NCBI GenBank assembly: GCA_009667805.1
Contig: CM019069.1
Location: 95,763,204 to 95,827,203 of the forward strand
Origin: Leptobrachium leishanense
Taxonomy: Eukaryota; Chordata; Amphibia; Anura; Megophryidae
Direction: 5' to 3'
Length of the DNA: 64,000 nucleotides
The position numbers were made by a program, and so were the translations under genes. This document shows, piece after piece, positions 181-31,355 of this stretch; within the stretch, counting starts at the first letter, position 1, and each line of letters starts with the position of its first letter. The notes beneath the pieces were generated by a model. The model was not told the origin of the DNA, ran no database searches, and saw only the letters and a list, made by a program, of their open reading frames with translations.

Positions 181-326
181 AAATAAAAAAAACTTTACTT
201 TATAAATAGTGAAACTCTATTCTCCTATATAACCAGGGTTTTTTTTTAGCCGATACCGGCACCTCTCGGCACGTACCGGCACCTCTTTGACCAACAGGAT
301 CCACCCGGCCGCCGCAATGCTCCGAC

Positions 327-592
327 CTCTCCTCTGCCAGGCCCCTCCTGCAGTTGCCGGCCGCCGCGTACTTCCTCCTATCGGCCGCCGCATGCTTCCT
401 GTGACCGACCGGCTTGAAACTCTGCCCCTCACGTGGGTTCCACCAGCCAGCCACGATCTCGCTAGCAGCTGGCTGGTGGAACCCACGTGAGCGGCAAAGT
501 TTCAAGCCGGCTGGTCACAGGAAGCATGCAGCGGCCGATAGGAGGAAGTACGCGGCAGCCGGCAACTGCAGGAGCGTCCTGGCAGAGGTGAG
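327..592. repeat. Long GC-rich palindrome
   Basis: Two arms of roughly 120 bp (about 331-451 and 468-590) are inverted copies with a few mismatches, separated by about 16 bases that include CACGATCTCGC. The transcript or single strand would fold into a long hairpin. The palindrome abuts the minisatellite directly. The centre 11-mer recurs exactly near 17175 in cassette copy B. Confidence 0.9.
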
Positions 593-594
593 CT

Positions 595-1258
595 GGGGCG
601 GCAATATACATCATGATCCATGTGTGAGTTGGGGGCAATATATATTCATGAGTGAGCTGGGGGCAATATATATCTATGAGTGAGCTACTGGGGGCAATAT
701 ACATCCATGTGTGAGCCCGGGGGGCAATATACATCCATGAGTGAGCTGGGGGCAATATACATCCATGTGTGAGCAGGTCTGGGGCAATATATCCATGTGT
801 GAGCTGGTCTGGTGCAATATATCCATGTGTGAGCTGGTCTGGTGCAATATATCCATGTGTGAGCTGGTCTGGTGCAATATATCCATGTGTGAGCTGGTCT
901 GGTGCAATATATCCATGTGTGAGCTGGTCTGGTGCAATATATCCATGTGTGAGCTGGTCTGGTGCAATATATCCATGAGTGAGCTGGTCTGGTGCAATAT
1001 ATCCATGAGTGAGCTGGTCTGGGGCAATATATCCATGTGAGAGCTGGTCTGGGGCAATATATCCATGTGTGAGCTGGCCTGGGGCAATATATCCATGTGA
1101 GCTGGTCTGGGGCAATATATCTCTTGTGAGCCTGGGGCAATATATCCATGTGAGCCTGGGGCAATATATCCATGTGAGCCTGGGGCAATATATCAATGTG
1201 AGCTGGCCTGGGGCAATATAACCCCCTGGGGTTATATATAGCCTAGGCAATATATCCA
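595..1258. repeat. 30-bp minisatellite (cassette copy A)
   Basis: About 22 copies of a unit of the form GAGCTGGTCTGGTGCAATAT followed by ATCCATGTGT. Units are most regular between 780 and 1080 and shorten toward the right. Because 30 is divisible by three, the array stays open in several frames on both strands; these frames are not genes. The core GCTGGGGCAATATATCCATG matches the minisatellites at 17262 and, inverted, at 30847. Confidence 0.95.
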
Positions 1259-1410
1259 GTGTGAATAAAGGAGTATTTATTAGGACACGAAAATTCGTCA
1301 TAATAATCAGTTTTTCCCTGGGCGTGAGAGTACCCCCACCTATTTTTTCAGAAAAAAAAGCACTGTATATAACGATAATCAAATGCATAAATTGCGACTG
1401 CGTAACCCTG

Positions 1411-1473
1411 TGTATATCTGGCTCTGATACTAGCCAGTGCCTCACCAGCCATTGACCTCACCGCACGTCACTG
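1411..1473 (+). repeat. 63-bp sequence shared with 7950-8012
   Basis: The block starting TGTATATCTGGCTCTGATAC and ending CGCACGTCACTG recurs at 7950-8012 with two or three differences. Neighbouring sequence at the two sites is unrelated. It may be the end of an unrecognised interspersed repeat. Confidence 0.75.
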
Positions 1474-1713
1474 ATGCTCAGTGCATTATTAATCTAGTCC
1501 TAGGAATACGCACTGCTTGGTTAGATCAAAGTGTCTGCTGAGGTGGGCGTGGAAAAAGCCAAGAAAGAAATGCAGAAAGAAATTAAAGAAACGCCAAGAA
1601 AGAAATGAAAAAATATATTTACATGCTTTTTATGCCTACTGAATGAGACGACTGACTCATTCAAAAGGCATTACACATTTTTAAAGGCACACTAGCAAAG
1701 CATGTATGTCCCT

Positions 1714-2956
1714 TTAACCCTTTCGCTGCTGAGGCTTTTCCCGCCTCTGTGCTGAGGTAATTTTTACCGGTTTTGCTCATCATGTTTAAACGCGTTTTGA
1801 AGGCTTATTTTAGTATATGACCCAGACAATATATCGTTCTTTCCGTCAGACTCGGCAGATTCATAATATGTCATTATTATATGTATACGTCATGACCTGT
1901 CTGTATATTATAACAAAAAATGCAATAAAATATGAATTTTCAATAATTTACAGCGTGTAAAGTGTTTTTTTTCCACATTTTAACATGCGAGCAATTGCGG
2001 TTATATTTTGTATGGGGTGCGCTTGTTAAAAAAATTAGAGATGGGGTCTCGTTACATTTTTTTTTGGGGAAAATTACACGATTTTTAACAAACGCACCGC
2101 ATACAAAAATCGTTAGTGCAGCATCATTGTTCACATTATAATTGAAATGGGAACAATATTGCTGCATTAACAAACCAAAAAAAAGAAAAAAAAGTGTTTA
2201 TTTTTTTTTATAATGTTTTTTTAAATATTTTTTTATTTTTATTTTATTTATTTATTTATTTTTACAAACTTTTTTCACTTTCGTGTTTGGTATCGTTGGA
2301 ATGGCCATGCTCTGGCCGATCCAACAATACCAAACGTTAACCCCTAGCTGCCACGGATCGGGAGATAGGGAGTTCCAATGAACTCCCTATCTCCACCGTT
2401 GGTGGCAGTTAGGGGTTCACTCCAGGACTGGCGTCATCGTGCTATGCATGATGACGCCAGTCCTCAGGGGGAGTTCCTGGAGGCTTGGCCGACATCCAAG
2501 ATGTCGGCCAGCTCCGGGAAAGGATCACGAACCGGCGCTTTTCAGCGCCGATTCGCGATCCAGCTCCCCAGGGGTTAATGCCAGGTACCATTTGGAAGGG
2601 CAGGCTGTGCCCTTCCAAATGGTGCCTGGGTTAACCCCCGCAACGCTGCCAATCGGGAGGGAGAGAGGTCCGAAGGACCTCCCCCTCCCTTTCAGGCGCC
2701 TCCTCCGCACATGCGGGGGGGGGGGGAGCCTGAATTAGGTGTCATCGCGCTGCCGCGATGACACCTAGTTTCACCGGCGGCGGTTCCGGATGCTGGGCTG
2801 ACATCGAGGATGTCAGCCCGCACCGGGGGGGCCAGCGATCGGCCGGAACTCGGCCGAACGCTGACCCCAAAGTGAGGACGCGCTCAGCGCGTCCTCAGCA
2901 CAGCAGCAGCCATGCGGAGGACGCGCTGAGCGCGTCCTCCGCATCGAAGTGGTTAA
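1714..2956 (+). mobile_element. TTAA-flanked non-autonomous DNA element, copy 1
   Basis: It is bounded by TTAA on both sides (1714-1717 and 2953-2956) with short imperfect terminal inverted repeats: CCCTTTCGCTGC on the left and the complement of GATGCGGAGG...CCACTT on the right. TTAA targets are used by the piggyBac and Kolobok superfamilies; I cannot choose between them. The left half is AT-rich and conserved among four copies in the window (1714, 16055, 20870 and, inverted, 46200). The right half is a chain of hairpins. No open frame resembles a transposase. Confidence 0.8.
2289..2942. repeat. Chain of about twelve consecutive hairpins
   Basis: Successive inverted repeats fill the right half of TTAA copy 1 with almost no spacer. 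Examples are 2289-2335 (GTTTGGTATCGTTGG arms), 2337-2417, 2421-2463 (TGGCGTCATC arms), 2484-2513 (TTGGCCGACAT arms), 2521-2560, 2581-2629 (CATTTGGAAGGGCA arms), 2646-2690, 2692-2733, 2737-2770 (AGGTGTCATCGCG arms), 2785-2820, 2832-2860 and 2874-2940 (GAGGACGCGCT copies). The same order of hairpins is seen in the other copies with different arm sequences. Confidence 0.85.
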
Positions 2957-2980
2957 GTAGTCAGCAATTTCCATGTTAAG

Positions 2981-3839
2981 CTGGCCGTACACTAGGTCCG
3001 TATTTGTGCGATGATGTGATCATCTAACATCGTCCGGCCGATCCCACAACAGTGAAGTGAATAAGCCCTCCACTGCCTCCGACTTCCATCTGACAACTTC
3101 AGATGATTTTTTACTACTACAACAGACTAGTGATCTTTCCCATTTCAATGGGATTTATCGGACGCTGCCGGGACAATCTGGTACAAGTTACATGAAAACA
3201 ATGAACTGGATACTTAAACCGCCGTGCCCCGGCAGGGAAATTGCTTCATAGAGAAGTGATTCAGTTCGACAGCCCATAGGATTCAATGTAAAAAGATATT
3301 TTCTATTCTATTCAACGGTTTATTTTTTTTCTACAGCAGCAAAAAGCCTTTTTAGTTACAGATTATTATTTTTTCTTCGGTATCTTCCTGGGGTTTTTCT
3401 TGGGTGTAATTTTAGGTTCCCATTCTTAAAAATAAATAAAGGCTAGCCTTTTTTCCCCTCACCGAACGAATTTAAAAAAAAAATCTTCAGGCTGGCTGGG
3501 TTTGGCGTTGCCCCGTCCTTGGTGCTGAAACCTATTTCAGCACCAGGGCAGGGGGTCTATTAACCCCCGCCCCCTACAGCCTTTGGCAAGATTTTTTTTT
3601 TAAAAAAAAAAAAAAATTCAGCTTCGAATGTGTTTGGACCTGGCTGCCCTTGGTGCGGAAACCTCATTTCAGCACCAAGGACAGGGTTTTTTCTCCCCGC
3701 AGCTGGATTTTTTTATGTTCGTTGGCCGACCTAGGTCGTCCACAGTCACTTCCAGTGGACAACCCTGAACGGCCGACGGCGTTGTCCGTAGATGGACAAC
3801 CAAGTCGGTCATCCGACTAGGAACCCAGTGGACGGCCAG
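2981..3839. mobile_element. MITE with TGGCCGTACACT ends
   Basis: The left end CTGGCCGTACACTAGGT is mirrored by the right end, whose complement reads CTGGCCGTCCACTGGGT. Inside are two similar hairpin units around 3520-3560 and 3650-3690, each with GGTGCTGAAA/TTTCAGCACC-type arms, and a stretch of GTCCAC/GTGGAC inverted motifs at 3740-3840. No target duplication was found. The superfamily is unassigned. Confidence 0.55.
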
Positions 3840-5335
3840 TCTCACAGGGAGTAGCATGCCTCTCAGCATCGTGAGATTTGAGATTGGAAAATATATGGGT
3901 GGTATATGAGGCATGCCAGGTATAAAAAGATATTTCACTTGGAAAAGGGGCTTTTTGGTACCCTAGTCATTAATGAAATGAGTGGAACTGTCTAAGAAAG
4001 GAACCTGTCTGCCCAGAAAAGGGGCACGTCTCACTGCTTTGCTCACAAAATCAGGGCATGTGACACTGTCTCATTCTGGACCAAATTCAACCCATCGCAG
4101 AAAGGTTTAGGGGCAAGGACTTGGGACCTTTATTGTACATTTTTAAACAAAATTGGGGAACAAGGTAACTACGTTTTAGAACAAAATTGTGAAGTTTAAA
4201 CAATGCAATAATTCCCAAATTTGCGGCTTCGTGAATAGTCTGTAGTATTTTGCATTACCTTTGAGAATTGAGAAAGCTGTGCCCCCATCTCCCATTCCTG
4301 GATTCCTACACTGATGGTTGTATATAATAAAATCTTTTTTAACTTAAGAAATCCTGATGGTTTTTGACAATATTGTGTAATAAAACCTTAAATCTGGATT
4401 GTGGAGTGTTCCATTAAGACAGCGCAGATAAAGAAGAAACACATTCTTGACAGCAGATAAGTAACGTGTCATCTAGCATACTCATTCTAATATAACTGAC
4501 TAATCATCTTTGTTCTTCACATAGTCTGCTCATTATAAAATCTCCAAATAATTTAATAGCCATGTTCTTTATGATAGCCTAAAGCATTTAGTTAAAAATC
4601 TAAGATATTCTCTGCCATTTCTACCAAAAACAAATCTTTAAATGTCTGTTAATAAGACGGAAAGGTTAGCCACTATGACCGTCTTATGTATACCCTCACC
4701 ATCACCTCAAGAGGTGGGACGGGACCTTCCTGTAAGTCTCCTATGAGGAGTAGGAGTTTATTTGTTATTGCCTTACTTTGCTTAGTTATGCCGCTGTAAG
4801 GCCTATATGCTGACAAAGCATACTTTATTTTGGAAATCTTGTGTTGCCTGAAGAAAAACGTGCTCATCCTGTCATGACAAAACGCGCGCCGCGACGAAGG
4901 AAGCAGGGTTAAGCAAATCACTATCAGTCTATCCTAGACTCAAAATAATGACTACGCGGCCCACAATCCCCCGCGCGCGCTTGCCTAACTATCCCGGCAA
5001 TGCCTTCACTCCAGAAGGGCACGCAAACGTGATGAAATGATCACAGGGTTGCAACACAGTATCCGTCTACACTCGCCCCGGAATCCTGACTACCTCGCCC
5101 ACAATACATGTACCCACTTTTCTTATTCTATTTATCATACTGCCACCACAAACCAACCTTTTTTATTCAAGAGGCTTACTGCTTGACCCAGAGACGGTTT
5201 GAGACTCTGGTCCTTCACCCCACCACAACTCACGGTTTAGTAGAGTCGAGCTTAAACAAAGGCAACTCTCTATGATAATCCAGTCCTTCAGTTAGTAGGG
5301 CTCGAATATCAGGCAGAAGCAGAGCTTAATAAGTT
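3840..5335. other. No gene recognised
   Basis: Mostly AT-rich single-copy-looking sequence. A small hairpin at about 4650-4686 (AAGACGG/CCGTCTT arms) and a GC-rich patch near 4880-4990 are the only structure. A possible decayed hammerhead-like motif near 4848-4892 is treated as a weak finding. Confidence 0.6.
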
Positions 5336-5339
5336 TTAG

Positions 5340-5860
5340 ATTTTATCTATAACATAATGCAGTAAGGCCTGGCGTGTCCGTCGCCAAGCCTCTACTGCGC
5401 ATGTGTGCACAACCAGCGGCGGTTGGCTGCGTGCGCATCCAACCGCCGCGGCAAGTGCACAGCCAGCGTGCGCGAGGGACAAAAAAAATCCGATCCATTG
5501 GAGAGGCGCACTCTCCAATGGATCGGATTTTTTGTGTCCCTCACGGATCCCCCCTGCCCAGAGTCTCCCCCGGAGGCACATGTCCCCATACTTACATTTC
5601 AATACGTGCCCCGTCGCTACGGCCTACGCCGTAGAGACCTGCGTGTGCGCCGCCGACACCTCACACAGCACTGTGTGCGCTGTCGATACCCTGATTACAC
5701 GTGCCCGCGCCCCAGGCTGGCTCTGTGGAGTGTATTCGATGCAGGAGGATGGGGGGCACCTGCCTGAGAAATCCAGAGAGGGAGGAGCCTCCTGGGGGGG
5801 GGGGGAGAGGGGGGGAGGGGGAGGGGGAGAGGGGGAGGGGGAAGAGGCCATGGCTTTCCT
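5340..5860. repeat. GC-rich block with strong hairpin and G-rich tract
   Basis: A near-perfect hairpin spans about 5473-5547: arms containing AATCCGATCCATTGGAGAG flank a short loop, and each arm ends in GAGGGACA/TGTCCCTC. Around it are CpG-rich stretches with GTGCGC and GCCGCC motifs. A purine tract of G runs occupies 5796-5850. Open frames on both strands here follow from the base composition. It may be an unclassified MITE core; no terminal repeats were found. Confidence 0.6.
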
Positions 5861-6259
5861 CTGTGCTGATGTTCAGATAGTGCTTAGCTGCCAATCTGTA
5901 TGATGTATTGTACCTCTAGCCAGGCTGCCTGGGGAGGGACAGGACAGGTGGGGGACTCCGCAGATGCAAAGTTGCCAGCAAGACTCTCAACTCCTCTTCT
6001 ACCAGGGCTGTCAGATCACAGCGTGTGCTTCATGGGTCACTGGCTTTGGGCTGGGGTGTCAGATCTCCATTTTGCAGTCAGGTTGGGTCAGTGGCTTGCT
6101 TTCCCTTCAGTATAATATGAATGACGCAAAAATGTATAGGTGCTTTAAGGAAACCTAATGGATGTGGCCAGGCTCCTCTTAATACTTTTGTTATAGGGGC
6201 AGCATATAGAGCGGTGTGTGTGTTCTTACAGTGACAGTCTCTTTACACACCCTTTCTTT

Positions 6260-6260
<1 letters not shown>

Positions 6261-6312
<52 letters not shown>

Positions 6313-6322
6313 TGTGTGTGTT
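6261..6322 (+). repeat. (GT)n microsatellite
   Basis: About 60 bases of alternating GT with one interruption near 6305, followed by T-rich and A-rich runs. Confidence 0.98.
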
Positions 6323-6358
6323 TTTTTTAACATTTTAGGCTCCAAAAAAAAAAAAAAA

Positions 6359-7715
6359 TCAGGGTTATTCAGAGAGGTGAAAACCTTGAATTGGCAGGAA
6401 AATGAACAGCCAATTTGGAAAGTGAAATAAATGGGAGAATTTTTCTGTTTCAACTTCTCCAGTCATTCTCCAAGGTTTTCACCTCTTTGAATAGCCCTGC
6501 TACAGGGTCATTCTTCTTTTCACCGCTCTGAATAACTCTGATACAGGGCTATTCAGAAAGAGGTGAAAATCTTAAATGACAGAAGTTAAAATTCTAGGTC
6601 AAAATGGTCAAACCAGAAAAATTCTCCCATTTATCTCACTTTCCAAATTGGCTATTTGGTCTAGAATCTGTTTCTCAACTCGTTTCCTCGGCCTGGTTTG
6701 CCAGATATGTGAAGCACAGGTGAAATGATTTGCTGCTCAGTGTTTGCAGTATTCAGTCTGCATTTTCCCAAGGTGATCTGAAAAATGTAGTATGTAGTGG
6801 GTCCTGAGGACTGGAGTTGAGAAGCCCTGGTCTAGATTGTTCATTCTCCTGCCAATTCTCAAGGTTTTCACCTCTCTCTGAATATCCCCGATATTGAATC
6901 ATTGTGCTGGCTACACTATCAGGGTTATTCAGAGAGGTGAAAACCTTGAATTGGCCGGAGAATGAACAAGTTGAGAAACAGATTCTAGACCAAATAGCCC
7001 ATTGAAAAATCTAGACCAAATAGCCAATTTGGAAAGTGAGATAAATGGGAGAATTTTTCTGGTTTGACTATTTTGACCTAGCATTTTAACTTCTCCTGTC
7101 ATTCTCAAGGTTTTCACCTCTTTCTGAATAGCCCTGTATCAGGGTTATTCAAATAGCGGTGAAAAGCAGAAGAATGACCCTGTATCAGGGCTATTCAGAA
7201 AGAGGTGAAAACCTTGGAGAATGACTGGAGAAGTTAAACTTCTAGGTGAAAATAGTCAAAGCAGAAAAATTCTCCCATTTATCTCACTTTCCAAATTGGC
7301 TGTTCATTTTCCTGCCAATTCTCAAGGTTTTCACCTCTCTCTGAATATCCCTTATAGTGTAGCCAGCACAATGATTATCAGGGATATTCAGAGAGAGAGG
7401 TGAAAACCTTGAGAATTGGCAGGAAAATGAACAGCCAATTTGGAAAGTGAGATAAATGGGAGAATTTTTCTGCTTTGACTATTTTGACCTAGAATGTTCA
7501 CTTCTCCAGTCATTCTCGAGGTTTTCACCTATTCTGAATAGCCCTGTATCAGGGTTATTCAGAGAGTGGTGAAAAGCAGGCGAACGACTGGAGAATGGAA
7601 AATTCTAGGTCAAAATAGCAGATCATGAAAGGGAAAAAAAATTCTGGTTTGGCTATTTTGACCTAGAATTTTCCATTCTCCAGTCATTCTCCTGCTTTTC
7701 ACCTCTCTCTGACCC
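6359..7715. mobile_element. Tandem cluster of short MITEs with CAGGGTTATTCAGAGAG ends
   Basis: The motif CAGGGTTATTCAGAGAGGTG and its complement recur many times (for example near 6359, 6480, 6545, 6880, 6922, 7115, 7140, 7190, 7335, 7380, 7530, 7550 and 7690), giving a run of alternating inverted units of 50 to 370 bp. Shared internal parts include AATTGGCAGGAAAATGAACA and ATAAATGGGAGAATTTTTCT. A single related copy sits at 45414-45577. The elements are non-coding; CAGGG ends might suggest hAT, but no 8-bp duplications were established. Confidence 0.75.
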
Positions 7716-8500: not shown

Positions 8501-8504
8501 GTGG

Positions 8505-8590: not shown

Positions 8591-8599
8591 CTTATGTTT

Positions 8600-9899: not shown

Positions 9900-10384
9900 C
9901 GAGCCCGATAAAGTTTATCACTGGCCGTGTCTAATTGCAAAGGCATCCGATTGTGTTCATATCTGCCGTGCCAGGAGATCAGGGGAATCTACTACCGGTT
10001 TGCGTTCTGCCCTGTTCGGTTGCTACAAAACCATTAAGTCTGCTGCTTGTGTGACTGCCCTGCAGTCTGCACAATTCATCAACCGCATCAACACTCTGTG
10101 TATCACCCGCATCCATACTCTGTGTATAAACCGCTGTGCAAATAACTATATTCATGTACCCAGGTTATGTTTACAGTTGACTGAAGTTCATGTGTTTGCA
10201 CCAAGCGATCTTTTGGTCTTGAAACCATTTGAGCTTAGGGGCTACTCAGGCTGGTCGTTATTATCCCTGGCTAGGGAGATCCGATCAATTTATACCTTTT
10301 GCTCTGTAAACTGGTATCATATAAGTCTGTCCATTACAATCCCAACTATGCTACTCCAGTGTGAGCGCTATAGCACCCGTTACA
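9900..10384 (+). mobile_element. LTR remnant, plus orientation, same family as 10967-11848 and 43769-44662
   Basis: The complement of the 43.8-kb LTR shares blocks such as GACTGCCCTGCAGTC and the end sequence GCGC(C/T)...CCCGTTACA; the present copy ends with CCCGTTACA at 10384. The complement of the 10967 LTR shares CAAATGGTTTCAAGACCAA-like sequence near 10210-10240. The left boundary is unclear. The LTR directly abuts the 28-bp minisatellite. Gypsy-type affiliation is inferred from the TGT...ACA ends and 5-bp duplications of the two other copies. Confidence 0.6.
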
Positions 10385-10961
10385 CTGGATATATATAAAT
10401 TGTGGGCTATGTGCTGGCTGGATATATACAATTCTGGGCTCTGTGCTGGATACATACAATTCTGGGCTCTGTGCTGGATACATACAATTCTGGGCTCTGT
10501 GCTGGATACATACAATTCTGGGCTCTGTGCTGGATACATACAATTCTGGGCTCTGTGCTGGATACATACAATTCTGGGCTCTGTGCTGGATACATACAAT
10601 TCTGGGCTCTGTGCGGGATACATACAATTCTGGGCTCTGTGTGGGATACATACAATTCTGGGCTCTGTGTGGGATACATACAATTCTGGGCTCTGTGCTG
10701 GATACATACAATTCTGGGCTCTGTGCTGGATACATACAATTCTGGGCTCTGTGCTGGAGATATATATACATATCTATTCTGGGCTCTGTGCTGGATATAT
10801 ATATATATATATTCTGGGCTCTGTGCTGGATATATATATAATTCTGGGCTCTGTGCTGGATATACATATAATTCTGGGCTCTGTGCTGGATATATATAAT
10901 TCTGGGCTCTGTGCTGGATATATATAATTCTGGGGTCTGTGCTGGATACAGAGAATTCTAG
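10385..10961 (+). repeat. 28-bp minisatellite
   Basis: About 20 copies of CTGGGCTCTGTGCTGGATAC followed by ATACAATT. Units from 10790 onward gain (AT)n in place of CATAC. The array continues for two more units at 11849-11900, on the other side of an inserted solo LTR. All open frames here are by-products of the array. Confidence 0.95.
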
Positions 10962-10966
10962 GGTTT

Positions 10967-11848
10967 TGTTATGGGCGCTGTGGCGCTTACCCCAGATCAG
11001 CGTTGTGTGGACCAGATTTCTATAGTACAAAAGGCAAGGAAAGCAGTAATACCTTGTATCCCAAGCCAGGGAGGTAATACACGATTCAAAATACCACTGA
11101 ACTCCAATTGGTTTCAAGACCAAGAGACTGTTGAGCGAAAACACAAATAACTCCATTCACATATTTTTCTTGACTGGAGACATGAGCATATTGTGGTACC
11201 AGACAGGTGTAATCAATTGCATGTGTATTATCAGAGAGTGTGTTACAAGGTCTGTATATAGGCTTGTTCTTAAACAGGTTGAGGGGTTGGTGCGTTTTGC
11301 AGCATGCACGGCAGTCACACAATCAGAGAACTTTTGATTAATGCTGCAACCAGAGTGAATGCTCAACAAACAACTGGAGCTGTAAGTAGGTCTCTCGCCC
11401 TGGCGGGCAGACACACAATCTGTAGCCTTGCGATTAGGACTGAAACCAGATTGGGCTGTCAACAGAGACTTAGAGCAGCAGATGAGTTTTACAACCTGGC
11501 GGGCAGAACCCCAAACAATAAGCATATGGTTAAATATAGACGGGTACACAAAATACCGCACAGAAGAAACACACATGGGATATAGCAACAGAATAGTCAA
11601 TTGGCAAGCCGGGTCAAAACGTAATCAAAACACACTGAACTAGATACAGCAGGCGATGCGGGAAATAAACTCCACGTCAGGGCAACGAGCAGATACTCAC
11701 GCCCTGATTTTAAGACCGGTGGCTCTTCGTGACCACGCCAAGCCCCGCCCCCTCAGACACCAATCGGCCATCACTGACTCCTGGCACCCAGCCAGCCACC
11801 AACGCCGTCGAGCGCCCAGACAGCACCACGGGGGTCGAGGACGTAACA
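10967..11848 (-). mobile_element. Solo LTR with exact 5-bp target duplication GGTTT
   Basis: In minus orientation the sequence begins TGTTACGTCC and ends ...CCCATAACA. GGTTT flanks it exactly at 10962-10966 and 11849-11853. A TTAAAATCAGGG promoter-like stretch and a GTGGAGTTTATTTCCCGCATC block are shared with the LTR at 43769-44662 (TTTAAAACCGGGC; GTGGAGTCTGTTCCCGCATC). A solo LTR is what remains after recombination between two LTRs of one element. The 5-bp duplication fits Ty3/Gypsy elements; ERVs with 5-6 bp duplications are an alternative. Confidence 0.85.
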
Positions 11849-15009: not shown

Positions 15010-17015
15010 GTAAGTACCAGCAAACACCAGCATTCATATCTTCGGTGCCAGCCAGCAGAGATGTGCTCGATGACCAGAGCCCCCATTGTCGGTGTGTTGT
15101 GATATGCCCACCAGCCCATTCGCACAAGCATACTCACACACATTGAATAATATCACACATACTCAATAATGAATGACACCGACAACAGTGACAGCAACAT
15201 AAATGTTTTATCCACAAGAAATGGTAATGCTAAACAAAATAACATTAACACACCATATGTTGCTGAACATACCATCAATCATACCTAAACTAAAGAGTCC
15301 ACTAACATGTGGCAAACAACAATGCAGAGCATAAAACAAGTGCATGAGCAGGAAAATAACTACAAATCCGCATAATGAGGAGCATCTTCCTCATAGGGGT
15401 CGGGCATGTAACCTCGGTTGTATGCAGACTGATAGGGTGGTTGTGACCTGGCACCAGGGGATATGGGTTGGTGTGGAGGCTCCGGCTGCCGGTAATAACC
15501 ACCAGCATACTGTGCATAGGGATGAGCTGTTCGGTTCGATCAGTTCGGAGTTCGATTCGAACTTTGGCCGTTCGCAAGTTCACGAACTTCGAACTTTTTG
15601 GAGTGTTCGGTTAGAGTTCGAAAAAAAAAAATTGTGAAAAAAGTATAAAAAAATGCTTAAAAAATACCAAAAAATCTACAAATAAAGAGACTCTTTACTG
15701 CAGAATATTATAAGCAACGGTTTATTAGATATTGAATTAAAAAATAATGTCTACGTGCAAAGATTCTCACCTCTAAATGACCTGTGCTCTCAAACGGCGT
15801 AGACAACAGGTGTTTAATTAGTGTTTGGAAATAACATGTGCTTCTAATTAGTCCTCTCATGAATTTGATACATTGTATGCAGACTGGAGGTGCCAGGTGT
15901 CATGTGTGGGCCTGTGCTGTGATGGCAATGTTTCCATACATCCTACAAATCCGCCACTTCACGGGCAGGTTATGGGGACCTCCTAGGCACGATATTTGAA
16001 GGAATTTTTCGTTTTTATTTTTAACCATTATTTTCTGGAAAACTCACTGTTCCTTTAACCCTTTCACTGCAGAGGCATTTCACCGCTGTGTGCTGAGCTA
16101 ATTTGTACCGCTTTCGCTCATCATGTTTAAAAGCGATTTGAAGCCACATTTTATTATATGACCCAGACATATTATATATCGTTCTTTCCAGGAGACTCAG
16201 CAGATTCAGAAGATATCATTTTTATATGTATACGTCATGTTCTGCCTGTATATTATAACAAAAAATGCAATAAAACTTGAATTTTTAATCATCTGCAGCA
16301 AGTGGTTTTTTTCACCTTTTATCACATGAACATTTGCGGTTATATTTTCTATGGGGTGTGCTTGTACAAAAATTAGAAATGGGGACTTATTAAATTTTTT
16401 TGTGAGGAATTATGTGATTTTTAGCAAACGCACACCATAGAAAAAAAATCATTAGTGCAGCATCATTGTTCACATTATAATTCAAATGTGAACAATATAG
16501 CTGCATTAATAAAAAGAACACAAAAAAATACATGTTTTTATTTTTTTATTATTTTTCTACTTTATACCTGGTCAAGTTGGGTATCATTTGAAAGGCCATG
16601 CTCAGGCCTTTCGATTGACACCCTCCATGACCCCCTAGCTGCTGCAGGTTCTGGAGATATCGGAGTTCAAATGAACCCCCTATCTCCACCAGGGGATTCC
16701 GGGCAGCTAGGGGTTCCCCGGCTATCTGACGTCATCACGCTATGCGTGAGGACGTCAGGCAGTGAGGGGGTTACCCGGGGGTGGAGCCGTCATCCAAGAT
16801 GGCGGCCCCCACCGGAGCTAGGCCGCACTGCGGCGCCGCAAGGTGCTGAAGTGCGACCCGGTGCCTAAGGGGTTAAAGCCAGGCACCGCTTAAAGGGGGA
16901 GACTGTCCCCTTTTAAGCGGTGCCTGGCTTTTTTTTGTGGGACCTCCCGATCGGGAGGGAGAGGGATTCGAACGGATCCCCCCCCTTCCAGGCGACCTCC
17001 CGGCATTGATGGGGG

Positions 17016-18228
17016 CAGGGCTGGCACTAGCGTATGGTGGCACAGGCAGCCGCCGTACTATCTGGCTTCTTGCCAGTTTGTGGGGGAGAAATTCCCCGGC
17101 CCGAGCACCACCACCTTGGTAGGCCGGGGAGACCCGGCGCAGCACTAGGGGCCGAACCACCTGACCAGCTCCACGCACGATCTCGCAAGAACACGGCTGC
17201 GCTGGTCATGTAGTTCCCGCCCGGCGAGCGGCACAGCTGCATCATGTCAGTGGCAGGGGGCAGATATATCCATATGTGAGCTGGGGGAAAATATCTCCAT
17301 ACAGTTGGGGCAATATATACCCATGTAATCTGGGGGTAAATATATCCATGAGTTGGGGCAAATTTATCCACGTGTGATCTGGCGGCAAATATATCCATGA
17401 GCTGGGGGCAAATATATCCATGAGCTGGGGCAAATATATCCATGAGCTGGGGCAAATATATCCATGAGCTGGGGGCAAATATATCCATGAGCTGGGGGCA
17501 AATATATCCATGAGCTGGGGGAAAATATATCCACATGTGATCTGGGGGCAAATATATCCACATGTGATCTGGGGGCAAATATATCCACATGTGATCTGGG
17601 GGCAAATATATCCACATGTGACCTGGGGGCAAATATATATATATCTCCATGAGCTGGGGGCAAATATATCCATGAGTTGGGGGCAAATATATCCACATGT
17701 GATCTGGGGGCAAATATATCCATGAGCTGGGGGCAAATATATCCATGAGTTGGGGACAAATATATCCACATGTGACCTGGGGCAAATATATCCATGAGCT
17801 GGGGGCAAATATATCCATGAGTTGGGGACAAATATATCCACATGTGACCTGGGGGCAAATATATCCATGAGCTGGGGGCAAATATATATATATCCATGAG
17901 CTGGGGGCAAATATATATATATCCATGAGCTGGGGGCAAATATATATATATATATATATATATATCCATGAGCTGGGGGCAAATATATATATATCCATAA
18001 GCTGGGGGCAAATATACCCACATGAGCTGGGGGCAAAAATTTCCATATGAGCTGGGGCAAATATCTCTACATGAGCTGGGGCAATATATAGCCATGTAAT
18101 CTGGGGGCAAATATATCTGCATGTGATCGGGGGCAAATATATCCACATGTGATCTGGGGCAAATATACCCATATGAGCTGGGGGCAAATATACTTATATA
18201 TATATACACACACACACTAGGGTTGCTC

Positions 18229-18263
<35 letters not shown>

Positions 18264-18366
18264 TTATCATGGCACCTCTATCCTGATTGGCTTGACATGG
18301 CACGGATGGGAGGGGCACCAAAATGCACCTTCGCCTGACTAGATAAAAATGCTTGCACCAGCCCTG
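17016..18366. mobile_element. hAT-like non-autonomous element with minisatellite (cassette copy B)
   Basis: The ends CAGGGCTGGCAC (left) and, complemented, CAGGGCTGGTGCAAG (right) are flanked by GATGGGGG (17008-17015) and GCCGGGGG (18367-18374), 6 of 8 bases. It splits the hairpin chain of TTAA copy 2. The interior has a partly palindromic module (17162-17232) and the minisatellite 17262-18193, followed by (AT)n tracts. The module shares CACGATCTCGC with copy A and CGC(A/G)AGAAC plus GTCA(C/T)GT(A/G)GTTCCC with copy C. Confidence 0.65.
17262..18193. repeat. 24-28 bp minisatellite (cassette copy B)
   Basis: About 35 units of the form GAGCTGGGGGCAAATATATC followed by CAT, with interspersed longer units containing CACATGTGATCTGGGGG. 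Some units have expanded internal (AT)n (17880-17965). Long open frames on the minus strand are due to the repeat. The core matches the arrays at 595 and 30847. Confidence 0.95.
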
Positions 18367-19202
18367 GCCGGGGGTCGCCTGGAAATGACGTCATCGCGCA
18401 TGGCGCGATGATGTCATTTACGTTAGGAGGAGCTTGACTTCAGCGTCTGAGGACATTATTTTTCCATTGGCCTAGTGGCAGATGCCAACTATAATTTCAT
18501 GGAAAACTCACTGTCCCTTTAAAACGTTTTTGTTTTTTTTAAACTTTTTGTCCTTGTTTCCTGTCCCCCAGGGCACTACCTGGACCCCCATACACCTTTT
18601 ATGGTAAATATCTAGCATATATGCCCTCTTGGAGGGCACTCTAAAAATCAAACTTTGAGTCCCATTGTATTGTATTGAGTTCGTGTTCGGGGGTGTTCGG
18701 CTCATCCCTAATTGTGCACTAGGAGGCACAGGCGGTAATGGAGGCTGGCTCAAGATGCTGTGGATGGTGTCCAATGTTCTTCGCCGGTACTCCATCTTCT
18801 GAGCCAGGCTCATCTGGTGCAACATGGGGAGACACGAATGATGGAACGTCATGTCATCGTCGTCCCAGAACCTGCAGCGTGGAGGTGGTGGTGCTGGATG
18901 GTGAGCATCCATGAATGTCACCATAGCATGCTCAAATTCAGCACCCGGTGGCCTTCTTTTGTGGGCCGGCCTGGTGGTGTCAGCTCTTGCAGTAGGCAGC
19001 TCCTGGGCTGCGGTCTCCTCCTCCAACTGCGAGTCTGCTCCGGCCTGTTCCGAGCAGGTGGCAGAACCACATGGCTGCACGAGTTGCTGTGCCCCAGATG
19101 TGGATGGGATATCCATGCTGTCCAACATAGGTCTTGGTTCGAGGGTCCGTTGCAGGAATGACAGCTGCTCAGCATAAATCTAGCTGCAGCCCCTCCTCGC
19201 CG

Positions 19203-19460: not shown

Positions 19461-19550
19461 CATGTGACGTTCATGAATTTGTTAGCCATTTACATTTTGT
19501 TTGAATTAATAATGTGCATTTGATTATGAATAGAATAATCATATACTCAC

Positions 19551-20990: not shown

Positions 20991-21021
<31 letters not shown>

Positions 21022-22399: not shown

Positions 22400-22414
22400 A
22401 TACAGCCCCTGACC

Positions 22415-23892: not shown

Positions 23893-26800
23893 ATGGCCCC
23901 AGTAAATATACTATCCCTAAATGTCAAAGGCCTTAATTCGCCTCGCAAACGCCGCTTATTATTCCGCGAATTAAAACGCAAAGCAGTTGACATTGCTCTA
24001 TTACAGTAAACTAGGATTCCTAAAACGGCTGCTTTTCGTTTATCGGATCCTGCCTATTCTAGAGTCTTTTTATCGTGTGCACTCTTAAGCGTAATGGGGT
24101 GGCGGTATTGATCCGAACCTCTTGTCTCATTACTATTACGGACTCCCACACAGATGACATAGGTAGATGTCAGGTACGGTGTCTGGTCAACAGTATACAT
24201 TCGCTTCAGTCTATGGCCCAAATGCACCAGATGCTGATTTTTGGTCCTCTACTCGCTCTTTTAGATCATCCCACACTAAAGGCCATGTTGTCCTGTGGGG
24301 GGGGGGGGATTTTAACGCGACGCTGTGCCCACCAATAGACAGATCTACCTCACATAATGACCAGACATCTCATCTCCCATCACTAGAAGACAAACAATTT
24401 TATAACTTCGTACATCACGCAGGCTATATTGACGTGTGGAGGGTCCAACACCCCTCGGTTAAAGACTACACATATTACTCTCCCGTCCATCACACCTATT
24501 CTAGAATAGACTGCATATTAACCTAAGCCTCATGTCTTCCCTTAGTCATCTCCTCTTCCATAGGCTCCATAACATGGTCTGACCACGCGGATGTCTCCCT
24601 CCAGCTGCGGCCTTTTGCTCCTGCAGTGGGTTGCCGTTGGCGGTTAGACCCATTTCTGCTGGATAAACTGGGTGTGCGTGATTCTGTGAGGGAAACATTA
24701 CAAGAATATTTCCACCTTAATGACATAGATGATATATCCATGCAGGTACTATGGGCTGCCCATAAACCGGTGATCCGGGGCGCACTACTAGGTTTAGCAT
24801 CCCACCTGAAAAAACAGAAATTAGCGGACATACAAGACCTTCAACGCCAACTCCGTGAGAGGGAGCTGATCCATAAGACATCCCCCTCTCCTGAGACCTA
24901 CGCTACCTTATCCCAGGTCAGACAGGACTTAAATAGGTTATTCCTTGATGATGTAGGACGATCGCTTCTCTGGTCCAAGCGAAGATACTACGAGAGGTCC
25001 AATAAAATAGACACCCCCCTTGCACGCCTTCTTAACCCTAGACCGCACTCACAGAATATGCCCCCCATACAAGACGACATGGGCTCCTAGCTCTCCACCC
25101 CGAATGCCATCAGAGACGCCTTCACTCAATACTTTGCATCCATTTATAATCACACCCCAACCCATTCAGCCTCTGATCCATCCCTGATGGACAGTATTAT
25201 TATTTATTATTATTATTCTTTATTTATAAAGCGCCAGCATATTCCGCAGCGCTGTACAATAAGCACAGTATAGACAGGGTTACAATACATTGAACAACAT
25301 TTGGCAAACAGTACAGGAGGAGATTAGGGCCCTATTCCCGTAGGAACTCACAATCTAGGAGGGTTGGAAACAGGAGGAGAGGACTGTAAGGTGAGAGTGA
25401 TTGATGGTTGCGTCAGTGAGTTGGGTGGTAGGCTTCCCTAAATAGGAATGTTTTCAGGGAGCGTTTGAAGGAAGAGAAGTTAGGGGAAAGTCTGACAGTA
25501 CGAGGGAGAGCGTTCCAGAGAGTGGGGGCTGCGTGTGAGAAATCCTGCAGTCTATCATGGGAAGAGGTGATGCGGGGAGAAGCTAGGCGCAGGTCACTGT
25601 TTGACCTTAGGGAGCGGGCTGGTGTGTATTTGGTGATTAGTGAGGACAGGTAGTGGGGAGCTGAGTTAGTGAGGGTTTTGTAGGTAAGGATAAGGATTTT
25701 GAACTTAATTCTGCAGTGGATGGGGAGCCAGTGAAGGGACTCGCAGAGGGGAGCGGCAGAGACAGAGCAGCGGGTGAGGTGAGTTAGCCTGGCTGAGGCG
25801 TTCAGGATGGATTGTAGGGGGGAGAGGCGGGACAGAGGGAGGCCAGATAAGAGATTATTGCAATAGTCGAGTCGGGAGATTACCAGGGCGTGTATGAGTT
25901 GTTTTGTGGTGACAGCGGTAAGAAATGGCCAAATTCTGGAAATATTACGCAGTTGGTATCGGCAGGAGGAGGAAAGAGACTTGATGTGGGGGATGAAGGA
26001 AAGATGTGGGGGATGAAGGAAATCAAGGTATCAAGTATCAGTATCAGTATCAAGGATTACCTATCCAGGGCCTCGCTTCCATCTCTGAGCGAAGATCAGG
26101 CGGCCACACTGGCTTCTCCCATTACCGAAACAGAATTTAGTAATGCCCTGAGCTCAATGAAACCTCACAAAGCACCTGGCCCTGACGGCCTCACATACTA
26201 GTACTATAAAGCCTTCCCCATAATCCTGTTCCCTTATTTGCTCCGAATGTTTAATGACCTGATGGAAGGAGGCACCCCGAGAATCCTTACTGGCGTCTAT
26301 TGTCTTAATACCCAAAACTGATAAAGATCACCATCTAACTGAAAACTACAGGCCAATCTCACTAATTAATACAGATTTGAAATTACTAGCCAAAATCATC
26401 TCCCTTAGACTAGAACTGCTTTTGACCTTTCTTATCCACCCTGACCAAGTCGGCTTTAGATCCACTCGACAGGCTTATGAAAACACTAGGAGGGCGGTGG
26501 ACTTGGTGTGGACAGCTATGGAGACATGGCAGCCTTCTCTGTTGCTCTCCTTGGATGCAGAGAAGGTGTTTGACAGAGCGGAGTGGCCCTTCCTGTTCTC
26601 CCTCCTGCAACATATTAAATTACCGGGCTCCTTTCTAGCCGCTATTAATGCCTTATACACCTCACCCTCTGCCCAGATTTTATTGCCTGGAGCGGAACCA
26701 ATCCCTTTTCTGATATCTAATGGTACGAGACAGGGTTGCCCCCTTTCCCCTGCCCTATTCGCCTTGTATTTGGAACGACTTCTCCAACACATACGGATGA

Positions 26801-28522
26801 ACCCAGGGATATGGGGACTCACAGTCCGTTCCGACTCCTTTAAGGTGTCGGCTTATGCTGACGATATCCTCTTGTCCCTGTCCCACCCCTTGGAGTCTCT
26901 GCCGCAATTGTTTAAAACCCTAGATGCATATGCAAGATTGTCAGGCTACAAAATCAATATCAACAAATCGGAAGCCTTCACGGTCCATGTTCCCCCCTCA
27001 ATATTACTCTCTCTGCACTAACTTTCCTGTCCGCTTCTCCCCCTCCTCTTTCAAATACCTAGGTGTTATGCTTACCAACGACCCTACCACCCTATATGAT
27101 GCTAATTATAAGATGTTATGGTCGCAAATAAAGAAGGATTTGGAATGTTGGGATAGATACCAAACTTCGTGGGTGGGCCGCATTTATAGCGTCAAAATGA
27201 ATGTCTTGCCATGTTGATTATATTTTTTCCAAGCATTACCTATTGCACTGGACTCTGATGATATACGGGACATACAGAGGGCTATTGACTCCTTTATTTG
27301 GCAAGGAAAACGCCATCGAACTGCTCGAGCTACCCTGTACAGGCCAAAGGAGGCGGGGGGCCTGGGACTGCCATGCCTGTTGTCTTATTACTACGCTGCA
27401 CAACTTGCCCAGGTTGTAGCCTGGCACTCCCCTCAGACCTCCCGTCGATGGGTAGACCTGGAAAGGGGTCTCATGTACCCGGACCGTCCCCAGATGTGGA
27501 TATGGCTTCCTAGAGCTCACCGCCCTTTATTGAAAACCTCATGTCCGGCCATCATTAACTCTCTCCGACTATGGGACAAATTGGCGACTAAATGCAATCT
27601 TACATCTTTCCCGTCTCCGCCAACACCGATCCTGTGGAATCGTGATTTCCTGCCGGGACTCATCTCCTCTTCCTCGGAGGGCTGGATGGGCTCCAACATC
27701 TCAAAAATCTGCCATCTATATCCCAAGGGACAACTATTACAATCTACGGACCTACCTCACTCTGGATTGTTACATCCCTTACCTTTACTCCAGATACGAG
27801 CATACGCAACTCGCCCTCATATCAAAACTGCAGCACTAACCACGCCGTCTTTCTTCGAACGACTATGACTTGGAGGCCCTTACCCTAGGGGGTTAATCTC
27901 TACGATTTATCACCAGCTTACAGTCCTTCTCGACTGGCGAGAACTCCACTACATTCAAGCTTGGGAAAGAGACTTGGGGGAGACATTGGAGGCTGAAGAA
28001 TGGGGCGATATCTGGGACGCTATGAGAAATGTCTTGGTATGCACGGTTCATCAGGAACAATTAATTAAAACTATTTTTCGATGGTACACCACTCCTGTCC
28101 AAGTTTCACACATGTCTCAACAGACCCCTGATCTTTGCTGGAGAGGATGTGGACTCCCGGGTACTTACGCCCATATGTGGTGGTTTTGTTCTGAGGTCCA
28201 ACGATTTTGGGACCAAACACACACTCTACTACAGGCAGTATTACCGACAGAGACTCCAATGGATCCATGGGCTTACTTGTTGTCCAGACCCTTACCGGAT
28301 CTGTCGCGACATGAAAACAAATTGTTGGCCAAGAGCACCCTTGCAGCCCGCCGCGTTCTCGCGGAACACTGGAACTGCCCGGCGATCCCTCCCTTTTCAA
28401 AAATTTACTCTAAAATCAGGGATGTCCAACTGATGGATGAACTCACAGCCACTACTAATCACACACTCTCAACCTGTTATAAAACATGGACACCATGGAT
28501 AGAACAGATGGGCTCAGCTTGA
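23893..28522 (+). pseudogene. L1 ORF2 (endonuclease and reverse transcriptase), broken
   Basis: Begins ATG GCC CCA with VNILSLNVKGLNSPRKR, the N-terminus of the AP-like endonuclease; an early TAA follows ALLQ at about 24007, where a glutamate codon is expected. Endonuclease sequence continues to SRIDC (24525). Reverse transcriptase motifs include NYRPISLINTDLKLLAKI, HPDQVGF, TRQGCPLSPALFALYLERLL and AYADDILLSL (YADD box, near 26855). The C-terminus has a C-x3-C-x7-H-x4-C cluster near 28137-28190. An L2 fragment (25198-26044) and several frame changes break it. Removing the insertion leaves about 1261 codons. Confidence 0.9.
25198..26044 (-). mobile_element. L2-like LINE, 3' fragment with (AAT)n tail
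   Basis: In minus orientation the fragment encodes a typical C-terminal L2/CR1-group segment (YTPARSLRSN...PRITSS...APTLWNALPRTVR...FKRSLKTFLF) and ends GCGCTTTATAAATAAAG followed by (AAT)n, a microsatellite tail characteristic of L2 elements. CAGTAT occurs on both sides (25192-25197, 26045-26050) and could be the target duplication. L1 ORF2 sequence resumes on the other side, so this insertion is younger than the L1. Confidence 0.85.
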
Positions 28523-29080
28523 ATCGGATCTCCCTTTTCTTATACCGTTTTGGGGTTTTGGTTGGCTCTTTTAGCCTTATAGACCGATAATATTATGGAT
28601 AACGTCGCAATTATCTCTTTCTCTACATAATGTCTTCTTTCTCTTTTTTCTATTTTCTCTCTTCACCTCTTCTTTCTGGGTTTGGGCGACCCCTTCTCTC
28701 TCCTTCCCCCTCCTCTATCCCCTACTCTCTAAATGTTATACCTATATTTGCTTGATTTATGTATGACAATTATCTCTGAATAAAAACATTAAAAAAAAAA
28801 AAAAGAGGGAGGCAGCCCTGAAAAGGGCAGACTCTGCCCTTTTAAGCGATGCCTTTCTCTTGTATCTCCTCCCAATCAGGGGAGAGAAAGGCATCCGAAA
28901 GACCCCCCTTTCAGGCACTCTTCTGGCTTTGCTGGGGGGTGCCTGAAACTGACTTCATCGCACCCGTCGCAATGATGGCAGTGCACCGGGAGGGGGGTAT
29001 AAAGTAGCATCCGGCTTCCATGAAGTCAGATTGCTGTGGGACCCCGAAGGAGAGAGGTGGGTATAGTGAGCGGAGTCCAC

Positions 29081-29531
29081 TAAGGCCCCAGTCAGACGAA
29101 CGCAGTCATCACGTCCATGTTGCCGCACAGTTTAACGTCCGTTGTAGCATAGAATCAGGATCAAGAGACCCACACACAAAGTACATGAGCACCGATGGCA
29201 ACGGACACAGTTTAGGCAAGAACGTATAAACTCTAGGACGACGCTCAGAGTGCGCCACATCCGCATAGCGTTGTGTGTGTGTGATGACACAAAGTCAGAC
29301 GGAGCGCATTTGCAACATGCAGCACCTTGACGCACAAAATGGCTTTTCAGATAATTTTCCAATTTGTATAAATTTTTCATATTAATTTTGTTTCCCATAA
29401 TTCCTTTTTTTTTCTACGTCCATCAAGAAAAACAGATCGTGTGGTGTCTACAGTATCTTCCATCAGTACATCCGTCCATTATGCACACACGCAGAGTGTG
29501 CTCAGACTGCGTTCATCTGACATTAGCCTTA
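29081..29531. mobile_element. PIF/Harbinger MITE
   Basis: The ends are TAAGGCCCCAGTCAGACGAA and, complemented from the right, TAAGGCTAATGTCAGATGAA followed by CGCAGTC. The interior has many ACG(T)CC and GACGGA motifs like the long element at 14475. It interrupts TTAA copy 3. The flanking triplets are TAA on the left and TTA on the right, symmetric rather than directly repeated. Confidence 0.75.
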
Positions 29532-29794
29532 GCAGAAGGCGCGTGGGGAACGTCCTCCGTAATGGGGAAATCCCATGACATTCCCCACATTTCTTAAGCA
29601 GTGAAGGGGTTAAACAACATTTTCCCATTCACATCATTCATAAAAACTATGAAGTGAGAAGAACAAAAATTTATAATCACCTTCCAGGCTATACGTAACC
29701 CTAGTATTGTAGTGATGTTACCTAGAATAGGAGCTTTGTAGGATAGTCCCTACAACCATCAACCAGATGCTTGATGGAGTGGGAAAAGGTATCT

Positions 29795-30140
29795 TTATGG
29801 CTGCGGTCACACAAGCATTTCTGAGAGCGGCAGGAACGTCCGTGAGAGTGGACTTTCCTTCCACTCAGGACGCCCATGTGGCCACCTCACTGAGAGCAGT
29901 TAGTGCACTCAGCGCTACAAAGCTCAATCCTCTATGGAGGATTGCGCTTTGCAGCCCCGTCCTACGTCCATCGTAGCTTTTCGACAGGGATGCTGAAAGC
30001 ACGTCCGATGGCAGCGAGCGCAACTAATGCGCACGATACACCGTGTGACCCTCCCCGTTGAGCTGTCATAAAGCTGCGATGGACGCAAAGAAGAGCGGTC
30101 ACACGGAGGCACTCATTGCGCTCGTGTGACCACAGCCTAA
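29795..30140. mobile_element. PIF/Harbinger MITE, complete
   Basis: The left end TTATGGCTGCGGTCACACAAG and the complement of the right end, TTAGGCTGTGGTCACACGAGC, enclose about 346 bp. The body with CATGTGGCCACCTCACTGAG and TCCTCTATGGAGGATTGCGC is shared with 9518-9760 and 45164-45413, and this copy serves as a reference for the two disrupted ones. Confidence 0.8.
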
Positions 30141-30310
30141 TACGTTTCACACACAATACGCTTCGTGCACTCATATCCACTAGCAGACACTGTCACTGGG
30201 GTCAGAAAATAAACAGTTATCCCATGCATTGCATAAGTGTAGCCACCTTAATTGTAACCTGCAACGAGTCTCGTGAGAGACTGGCAACACAAGTCTTCAA
30301 AGGACATAGT

Positions 30311-30527
30311 CTTTTTTTTTTTGCAAAAGGATTTTACCAGGAAGGATACATTGAGATTTCTCTAATTTTCAAGTATGTCCTAGGTGGCGAGTATGTACAG
30401 TTAGGTGTCTTGCCAAGGACACTTACTGGAGAGGTGCTCTTGCCGGGATTGAACCTGTGTCTCCACAGTCTCTCTCCACCGTTATAGAGCAGTGATGTTA
30501 CCGCTACTCCACCCAGCCATGAGAAGG
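30311..30527 (-). mobile_element. tRNA-derived SINE
   Basis: On the minus strand the head reads TGGCTGGGTGGAGTAGCGGT (A-box-like) and about 50 bases later GGTTCAATCCC, a perfect B box of an RNA polymerase III promoter. A tRNA-unrelated body follows with CCTAGGACATACTTGAAAAT and ends in a run of A (the T run at 30311-30320 on the plus strand). I do not recognise the family by name. No clear target duplication. Confidence 0.7.
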
Positions 30528-30846
30528 AAGAAGGCGGTGCTAGACCGTGTCATAAAACATGAGAAATTTATCATTAGTAGAGTTAACCGAAGATGTAGCG
30601 TCTATGTGGAAGAGATCAAAAGAGGCTGTACGTGGTGACAGCCCCACCATACTCTATTTGGTGGAGGAAGTCTGAGGTCACATACTTCTTGCCATGAAAC
30701 TGTCCAGGCTAGGGCTGTGCAATATTGACAAAATAATCATATTGCGATTTCTTGAATGAATATTGCGATTGCAATTTTATTTGCGATTTAGCCAATTGTT
30801 TTTGCTTTTTCAAACATGCTACATACATTCTAAATGTATTCAGTAT

Positions 30847-31045
30847 TCAGCACATGGATACTGCCCCAGCACATGGAAATACTGCCCCAGCACATGGATA
30901 TACTGCCCCAGCACATGGATATACTGCCCCAGCACATGGATATACTGCCCCAGCACATGGATATACTGCCCCAGCACATGGATATACTGCCCCAGCTCAT
31001 GGATATACTGCCCCAGCACGTGGATACTGCCCCAGCTCACCTCTG
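30847..31045. repeat. 20-21 bp minisatellite (cassette copy C)
   Basis: About nine units of CCCAGCACATGGATATACTG plus C. The complement, GCAGTATATCCATGTGCTGG, matches the core of the arrays at 595-1258 and 17262-18193. It stays open in several frames but encodes only repeats. Confidence 0.95.
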
Positions 31046-31046
31046 T

Positions 31047-31205
31047 GCGCCACGTGTTCGGCTCCCTGTTAACTTCTGGCGGCATGGAGCTTGGGCGCTC
31101 GCCTGGGGGAACCATGTGACGAGCCGCGAGAACGTGGCTCGTCACGTGGTTCCCCCTGCGAGCGCCCAAAGCACCATGCCGCCGGAAGTTAACAGGGAGC
31201 CGAAA
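31047..31205. repeat. Palindrome next to minisatellite C
   Basis: Arms of about 70 bp are inverted copies: GGCTCCCTGTTAACTTC at 31060 against GAAGTTAACAGGGAGCC at 31186, continuing inward through GGGCGCTCGC and CACGTGG motifs. The centre is CGAGCCGCGAGAACGTGGCTCG. Part of it (GTCACGTGGTTCCCCC, GCGAGAAC) matches module B at 17183-17232. Confidence 0.9.
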
Positions 31206-31355
31206 ATTGCAGCCTTATGCGATTTATTAATTGCATGGTCGGAAATCGCGATTCGATTGCGATTGCAATTAATTGCACAGCCCTAGTCCAGGCATAGACA
31301 CAAAAATTGTAAATGACAAATTCCTCTTTCCAGATAAATGAATGAGAAGATACAA

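Follow-up and report, generated by a model that had tools for sequence, protein, structure and literature searches.

Introduction

Families of miniature inverted-repeat transposable elements (MITEs) with shared interiors are known from the coral Acropora, where CMITE families have different terminal repeats around a common internal region that is more conserved than the ends, and modular elements with tandem central repeats are known from the Pacific oyster, where Cg_HINE elements join such repeats to flanking modules and disperse them (PMC2872659; PMC7492417; these and the reports cited below are quoted from their accessible sections). The origin of the CMITE internal region is given as unknown, with transduplication discussed (PMC2872659). 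In a stretch of 64,000 nucleotides from the frog Leptobrachium leishanense (GenBank assembly GCA_009667805.1, contig CM019069.1, positions 95,763,204 to 95,827,203, forward strand; hereafter the window), three non-autonomous DNA transposons, E1, E2, and E3, carry one cassette with three parts (a palindrome rich in GC, a junction resembling a splice donor, and a minisatellite), which probably derives from a single source, was passed between transposon families, and was then amplified. A preliminary description of the window had recognized one cassette in three elements with different ends, which was confirmed and proved wider than claimed; that the palindrome is a symmetric CpG-rich stretch with a splice-donor-like site at its end was absent from it.

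The described systems differ from this locus in several respects. CMITEs are about 100 bp long, have TTAA duplications, and are linked to piggyBac-like transposons; the accessible sections describe no internal minisatellite or palindrome, and the elements themselves can form tandem arrays (PMC2872659). The duplications found here are 8 bp or TA rather than TTAA with piggyBac-type ends. All Cg_HINE elements are Helentrons, whereas here the array and palindrome are common to hAT elements and a TA-duplicating transposon (PMC7492417). In a mollusc satellite-transposon network, tandem repeats likewise occur in varied contexts and one satellite has its junctions inside a palindrome, but neither hAT elements nor a splice-donor-like junction are described in the sections available (PMC5139131). 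The Xenopus Xmix MITE/Xstir and frog SINE/tRNA-V minisatellite cases also concern tandem repeats from or within amphibian transposable elements, but involve one element family each (PMC9659126, PMC10794172). Tetris of Drosophila virilis is a foldback-like element whose internal tandem repeats expand, but these lie in its own terminal repeats, and terminal portions, not an interior crossing superfamilies, are common to it and DAIBAM (PMC4079207). A palindrome-junction-minisatellite block spread across hAT families and a TA-duplicating transposon was not found in literature searches confined to open PMC papers, and may still be described, for example in repeat-database reports; a literature search with the string CCGTATTTTTCG returned unrelated papers only. 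Helentrons and HINEs are not known to have terminal inverted repeats or target duplications, both of which are present here.

Results

The whole genome of the window (G000, 3.54 Gb; the window is C7:95763204-95827203) was searched with element queries, yielding at first look 6494, 2113, 6693, and 6452 candidates for E2, E3, E1, and a further host, E9, respectively (40 scored each); these are not copy numbers because the array common to the families inflates them. Of 30 E3 copies, that of the window among them, 29 have a perfect 8-bp target duplication (L022 differs at one base; L029 is perfect if a changed first base is allowed for), and full-length matches to the 576-base query are 91-97% identical among those scored; E3 is best classified as a young non-autonomous hAT-type element. 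For E1 the duplication is perfect in 10 of 11 copies, window included, and matches at 7 of 8 bases in L063. While the extents first given for E2 and E3 were kept, the end of E1 at 1410 was dropped, since many other copies cease matching at query positions 1132-1140 (near 1365), and moving it to 1365 produces a perfect duplication (Table 1).

The 28 E2 loci fall into two groups by their flanking sequence, as judged by eye. In sixteen, one or both flanks are those of a single hairpin element, with E2 inside the hairpin (duplication GCCGGGGG at L002). The window copy is itself nested in a larger hairpin element, its own duplication decayed (GATGGGGG/GCCGGGGG); E2 and hairpin (window 16986-17015, 18367-18400) make up a composite in which two mobile elements have multiplied jointly. 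The other 12 loci have different flanks, and nine of them were read at both ends (L044, L047, and L057 at one end only). Among these nine independent copies, duplications judged by eye are perfect in six (L043, L045, L049, L050, L052, and L054; TATATATA at L052), match at 7 of 8 bases in L051 and 6 of 8 in L041, and are ambiguous in L055. Short terminal inverted repeats starting with C/TAG are found in E1, E2, E3, and two further hosts, E6 and E8, those of E1 matching only in part and E6 starting with CAC on one side and CAG on the other. Because 8-bp duplications recur at other copies, E1, E2, and E3 are all assigned to the hAT type, as three repeat families with different ends. An Rfam search at the gathering threshold gave no match, a protein search with the E3 reading frame gave a single weak, uninformative match (E 3.4e-3), and IMG/VR scans with two patterns gave 0 matches, records near the window's genome possibly being left out.

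When the three interiors were aligned with one another, the minisatellite units matched beyond chance and the palindromes were related. Their layout is the same once E3 is reverse-complemented (host end, palindrome, junction, array, other end), with the palindrome about 80-140 bases from one host end; the order and orientation first proposed, with E3 inverted, are consistent. The window contains 36 matches to a 17-base core at no more than 3 mismatches, against 0.33 expected (largest shuffle 2), and 35 of the 36 lie inside the three arrays, which bears out the common core already noted. The units, of common form GAGCTGGGGCA(n)ATCCATGT, align mutually better than any of 1000 unit shuffles and are judged homologous from this alignment. 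Five other window minisatellites (10417, 49447, 35775, 31895, and 25983) have no strong alignment with the cassette unit and were rejected as cassette members; the nearest pairs, E3-49447 and E3-10417, were reached by 14 and 27 of 1000 shuffles, respectively. The proposal that the module is a source of new minisatellites was not sustained; instead, one old homologous unit appears to have been re-expanded in each family.

Palindromes were compared without the array, with scores set against palindromic null sequences. Between window copies, E2-E3 and E1-E3 score above all 1500 nulls on either side, and E1-E2 above all but 1. With consensus sequences, E2-E3 scores 53 in the better orientation and its forward score of 42 is met by 1 and 0 of 2000 nulls, whereas 4 of 2000 nulls meet the E1-E2 score, and 6 and 12 of 2000 that of E1-E3 (11 of 2000 when the window copy of E1 is set against the E3 consensus). 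The linked palindromes reported earlier are thus clear for E2-E3, with the consensus too, and weak for E1 by palindrome alone; the three appear related but diverged. The string CACGATCTCGC, noted as common to E1 and E2, was located at 452-462 and 17176-17186, where reverse-complemented E3 has CACGTTCTCGC, and E1 and E3 both have AGCCGCG(A/T)TCTCGC in the palindrome core. Four E1 copies (L061, L066, L067, and L068) contain an additional copy of the palindrome core.

A scan for the unit across 324 kb of genome sequence, the window and overlapping stretches included, found it beyond the focal elements as well. Around the 30 E3 copies (90 kb of flanking sequence), four arrays (L011, L026, L027, and L038) correspond to one E8, two additional E3 copies, and one E9, and the flanks and interiors of E2 loci yielded E6 (L002/L073), E7 (L045), E4 (L049), and a piece of E8 (L056); two arrays, L046 14-287 and L047 3213-4557, have no family assignment. 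An apparent element CAGGGGTGTGG...CCACACCCCTG at L056 was not counted, being without a clear duplication and seeming to contain the nested E8 piece. E6 has ends CACTGGTGTCAAAGAC.../CAGGGGTGTCAAACTC... with ATATATAT on both sides, a weak duplication as it lies in an AT run, and E8 has ends TAGGGTTGCACCGATACC with the perfect 8-bp duplication GTTTTTCT; both, seen in one copy each, are predicted to be two more hAT-like families with the cassette. E9 has ends CCGTATTTTTCGCTCCATAAGACGCAC, unrelated to those of E3, and TA borders it at each end in L071 and in 8 of 10 additional copies (2 by eye; the remaining 2 read on one side only), the sequence beyond differing; these nine copies show TA only and no 8-bp duplication. 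By this duplication E9 would be Tc1/mariner-like. At the far end of the left arm of the E9 palindrome in L071 (reverse, 1840-2060) lies an inverted minisatellite unit, the array start being mirrored. The host of E4 has inverted repeats 79% alike across 169 bases after the flanks of an E2 insertion are joined; a duplication scan found no hAT-like ends for E4 or E7, and E7 has a hAT-like end at its 5' side only. The search beyond the known ends thus added hAT-like hosts (E6 and E8) and hosts that are not hAT (E9 and E4): sharing or exchange of the module, as first proposed, stands, but its restriction to hAT families does not.

Comparison of all eight palindromes (consensus for E1, E2, and E3, single copies for E4, E6, E7, E8, and E9) gave six of 28 family pairs met by 0 of 400 nulls: E1-E4 (score 146), E3-E9 (125), E2-E3 (53), E2-E9 (40), E2-E4 (38), and E4-E9 (34). 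E1-E2 (33) was met by 1 of 400 and E1-E3 by 2. With 28 pairs and 400 nulls, just the six are safe, and they join E1, E2, E3, E4, and E9 into one linked group. In the window E3, positions 82-433 align with E9 119-482 as a single block at 72%, running from palindrome through junction to array, and E1 149-678 (window) aligns with E4 206-723 at 71%. The palindromes of E1, E2, and E3 have a GC content of 0.66-0.74 and a CpG observed/expected ratio of 0.88-1.01 (0.59-0.74 and 0.70-1.08, respectively, across all eight). CACGTG occurs in those of E1, E3, E4, E6, E8, and E9 and is not found in E2 or E7; E2 also contains GCCGCCATCTT and TCTCGC/GCGAGA. These strings may represent YY1-, BANP/ZBTB33-, and E-box-type promoter motifs.

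E1 and E3 have the identical junction CAGAGGTGAGCTGGGGC. In seven of the eight families (E1, E2, E3, E4, E6, E8, and E9) CAG or GAG stands directly before the array's first GTGAG, a donor consensus at the array start with the cassette form CAG or GAG followed by GTGAG(AG)CTGGGG; the array start was placed by eye and the search patterns (AGGTGAG, AGGTRAG) require AG before GT, so that the scripts locate the junction and do not test its presence. Later GTGAG units are preceded by AG in 0 of 84 cases (six commonest contexts per family; the E3 array has none). The window E2 copy is without the exon-like stretch and GTGAG junction, both kept in other E2 copies as GCCACCATGAGG...CTGGCAGCAG/GTGAGAGCTGGGG, near CCTGGCAGAG/GTGAGCTGGGG of E1. 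An ATG frame is open up to the donor in the consensus of E2 (8 loci; GCCACCATGAGG...CAGCAG/GTGAGA) and of E3 (30 copies; ATGCCGCCGGAA...GAG/GTGAGC). A coding first exon in all families was ruled out, as E1 copies mostly have ACG in place of ATG. The junction pattern can reflect a common origin that includes the last exon-like bases, or constraint on a 5' splice site.

Discussion

Exchange or capture of the cassette between families is a well-supported best account, as judged from a common unit and junction, palindrome homology (E1/E4, E3/E9, and E2/E3/E4/E9), unrelated ends, and target duplications. The cassette would have moved at least once between a hAT element (8-bp duplication) and a TA-duplicating transposon; transfer is preferred over common hAT descent because the continuous E3-E9 block (72%) is joined to differing ends and duplications (8 bp vs TA). 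Palindromes and arrays are inherently recombinogenic. Transfer may have occurred by recombination or template switching, probably in the array or hairpin, during repair of an excision gap; such repair, or crossing-over within arrays, would join the ends of one family to the interior of another, after which each family would have spread through a transposase recognizing its own ends while its array lengthened or shortened in place. At L045 (1-1650, reverse) an array that shifts midway from units of CATTATCC to CAATATCC and mixed types connects an E7-type 5' end with an E8-like 3' end, possibly a chimera such as intra-array recombination would produce.

Several observations weigh against transfer of a complete cassette among all eight families. 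Donor and recipient were not seen side by side for any transfer in the copies examined, and L045 is a single locus that could also result from nested insertion followed by deletion. Clear similarity to the other palindromes is lacking in E6, E7, and E8 (E3-E7 is met by 3 of 400 nulls, E2-E6 by 4, and the best match of E8, E1-E8, by 24), so that E6 and E8 may be linked by array and junction only, and E7 only by its array; E4, E6, E7, and E8 were each judged chiefly from one copy. E7 is without the junction, AG/GTGAG is also found within a different E2 array, at an inner unit (L049 3082), and the E1 consensus has no ATG before the donor, most copies having ACG where the window has ATG.

Alternatively, the cassette itself could be mobile, as a foldback-like palindrome that has minisatellite tails, inserts into transposons, and then travels along. 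Its symmetry, the different kinds of host, the inverted unit in the left arm of E9 (...GCCTCAGCTCACCTGC...) beside the host end, and an inverted donor (CTTACCT) in the left arm of E8 fit this idea, which we nevertheless consider unlikely: no duplication is seen around the cassette itself (without an empty-site comparison), the palindrome stays close to one host end in E1, E2, and E3 (at most about 80-140 bases away), and the E3/E9 and E1/E4 local alignments begin at different palindrome positions (starts imprecise). Still less probable is that the cassette is a 5' remnant of transposase genes (promoter, exon 1, and the beginning of intron 1), kept in elements with internal deletions and passed on vertically in one hAT lineage whose ends diverged. 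The donor-like junction in seven of eight families and the frames open to the donor in the E2 and E3 consensus are as expected of such remnants, but the host ends are unrelated, the ATG is missing from the E1 consensus, and E9 carries the palindrome of E3 although its TA duplication is not that of a hAT. Convergence, with hairpins promoting replication slippage so that G-rich minisatellites arise repeatedly beside palindromes, finds a parallel in the second window array between inverted flanks (10417-10959, flanks by eye) and could apply to the palindromes of E6, E7, and E8, but is very improbable overall, as the units are one sequence, E1, E2, and E3 agree in their order, the remaining window minisatellites lack strong alignment to these units, and unit homology speaks against it for the arrays.

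Under the preferred account of transfer between families, the palindrome may go back to a promoter, rich in CpG and perhaps bidirectional, together with a first exon and its 5' splice site; such a role is an inference from sequence features. Extended further, the cassette would be a portable bidirectional promoter, rich in CpG, that comes with a first exon, a 5' splice site, and an intronic minisatellite of repeated donor-like, G-run units and has passed among several hAT families and at least one further superfamily, so that unrelated non-autonomous elements spread one transcription-initiating module through the genome; we regard this fuller version as conceivable but doubtful. If cassette transfer is correct, non-autonomous transposons of different superfamilies trade interiors, which would make the interior of a MITE uninformative on its ancestry, and tandem repeats are able to cross superfamily borders. 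The recurrent order of palindrome, donor, and array raises the testable questions of whether intra-array recombination swaps transposon ends and whether cassette elements seed promoters and donor sites beside host genes.

Features of the window

Table 1. Coordinates of the predicted elements E1, E2, and E3 and their parts within the window.
Feature	Position	Strand	Details
E1, non-autonomous hAT-type element	234..1365	+	ends CAGGGTTTTTTTTTAGC / CAGTGCTTTTTTTTCTG
E1 target duplications	left 226..233, right 1366..1373		TATATAAC, perfect
E1 palindrome	322..597	+	arms 322-451 / 468-597, complementarity 92%
E1 junction, splice-donor-like	583..599	+	CAGAG/GTGAGCTGGGGC
E1 minisatellite	588..1220	+	unit ~24-30 bp; Tandem Repeats Finder (TRF) 616-1220, first units by eye
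E2, non-autonomous hAT-type element	17016..18366	+	ends CAGGGCTGG / CCAGCCCTG
E2 palindrome core	17154..17218	+	GAACCACCTGACCAGC...CATGTAGTTCCC
E2 minisatellite	17256..18192	+	unit ~23 bp
Outer hairpin element carrying E2, left arm	16986..17012		
Outer hairpin element carrying E2, right arm	18367..18384		
E3, non-autonomous hAT-type element	30710..31285	-	ends TAGGGCTGTGCAAT; cassette on minus strand
E3 target duplications	left 30702..30709, right 31286..31293		GTCCAGGC
E3 palindrome	31057..31204	-	outer arms 31057-31095 / 31166-31204
E3 palindrome inner arms	31105-31128 / 31133-31156	-	
E3 junction	31029..31045	-	CAGAG/GTGAGCTGGGGC
E3 minisatellite	30848..31036	-	21-bp unit, ~9 copies

Outside the window, a string of E2 array matches at G000:C5:188187713-188200377 (about 12.7 kb, interrupted near 188190023-188192790) suggests a very long minisatellite array. 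Within the window, a 28-bp minisatellite at 10417-10959 (in 10200-11150) has an unrelated unit and flanks that are inverted to each other by eye, and positions 6360-7712 hold a dense cluster of overlapping inverted repeats, some starting with CAGGGTTATTCAGAGAG. Reading frames in the window presumably resemble vertebrate Tc1 and long interspersed nuclear elements (LINEs); among them, a 350-residue open frame at 41657-42709, which we take to resemble a Tc1-type transposase, has a broken relative at 62296-63364 on the minus strand.

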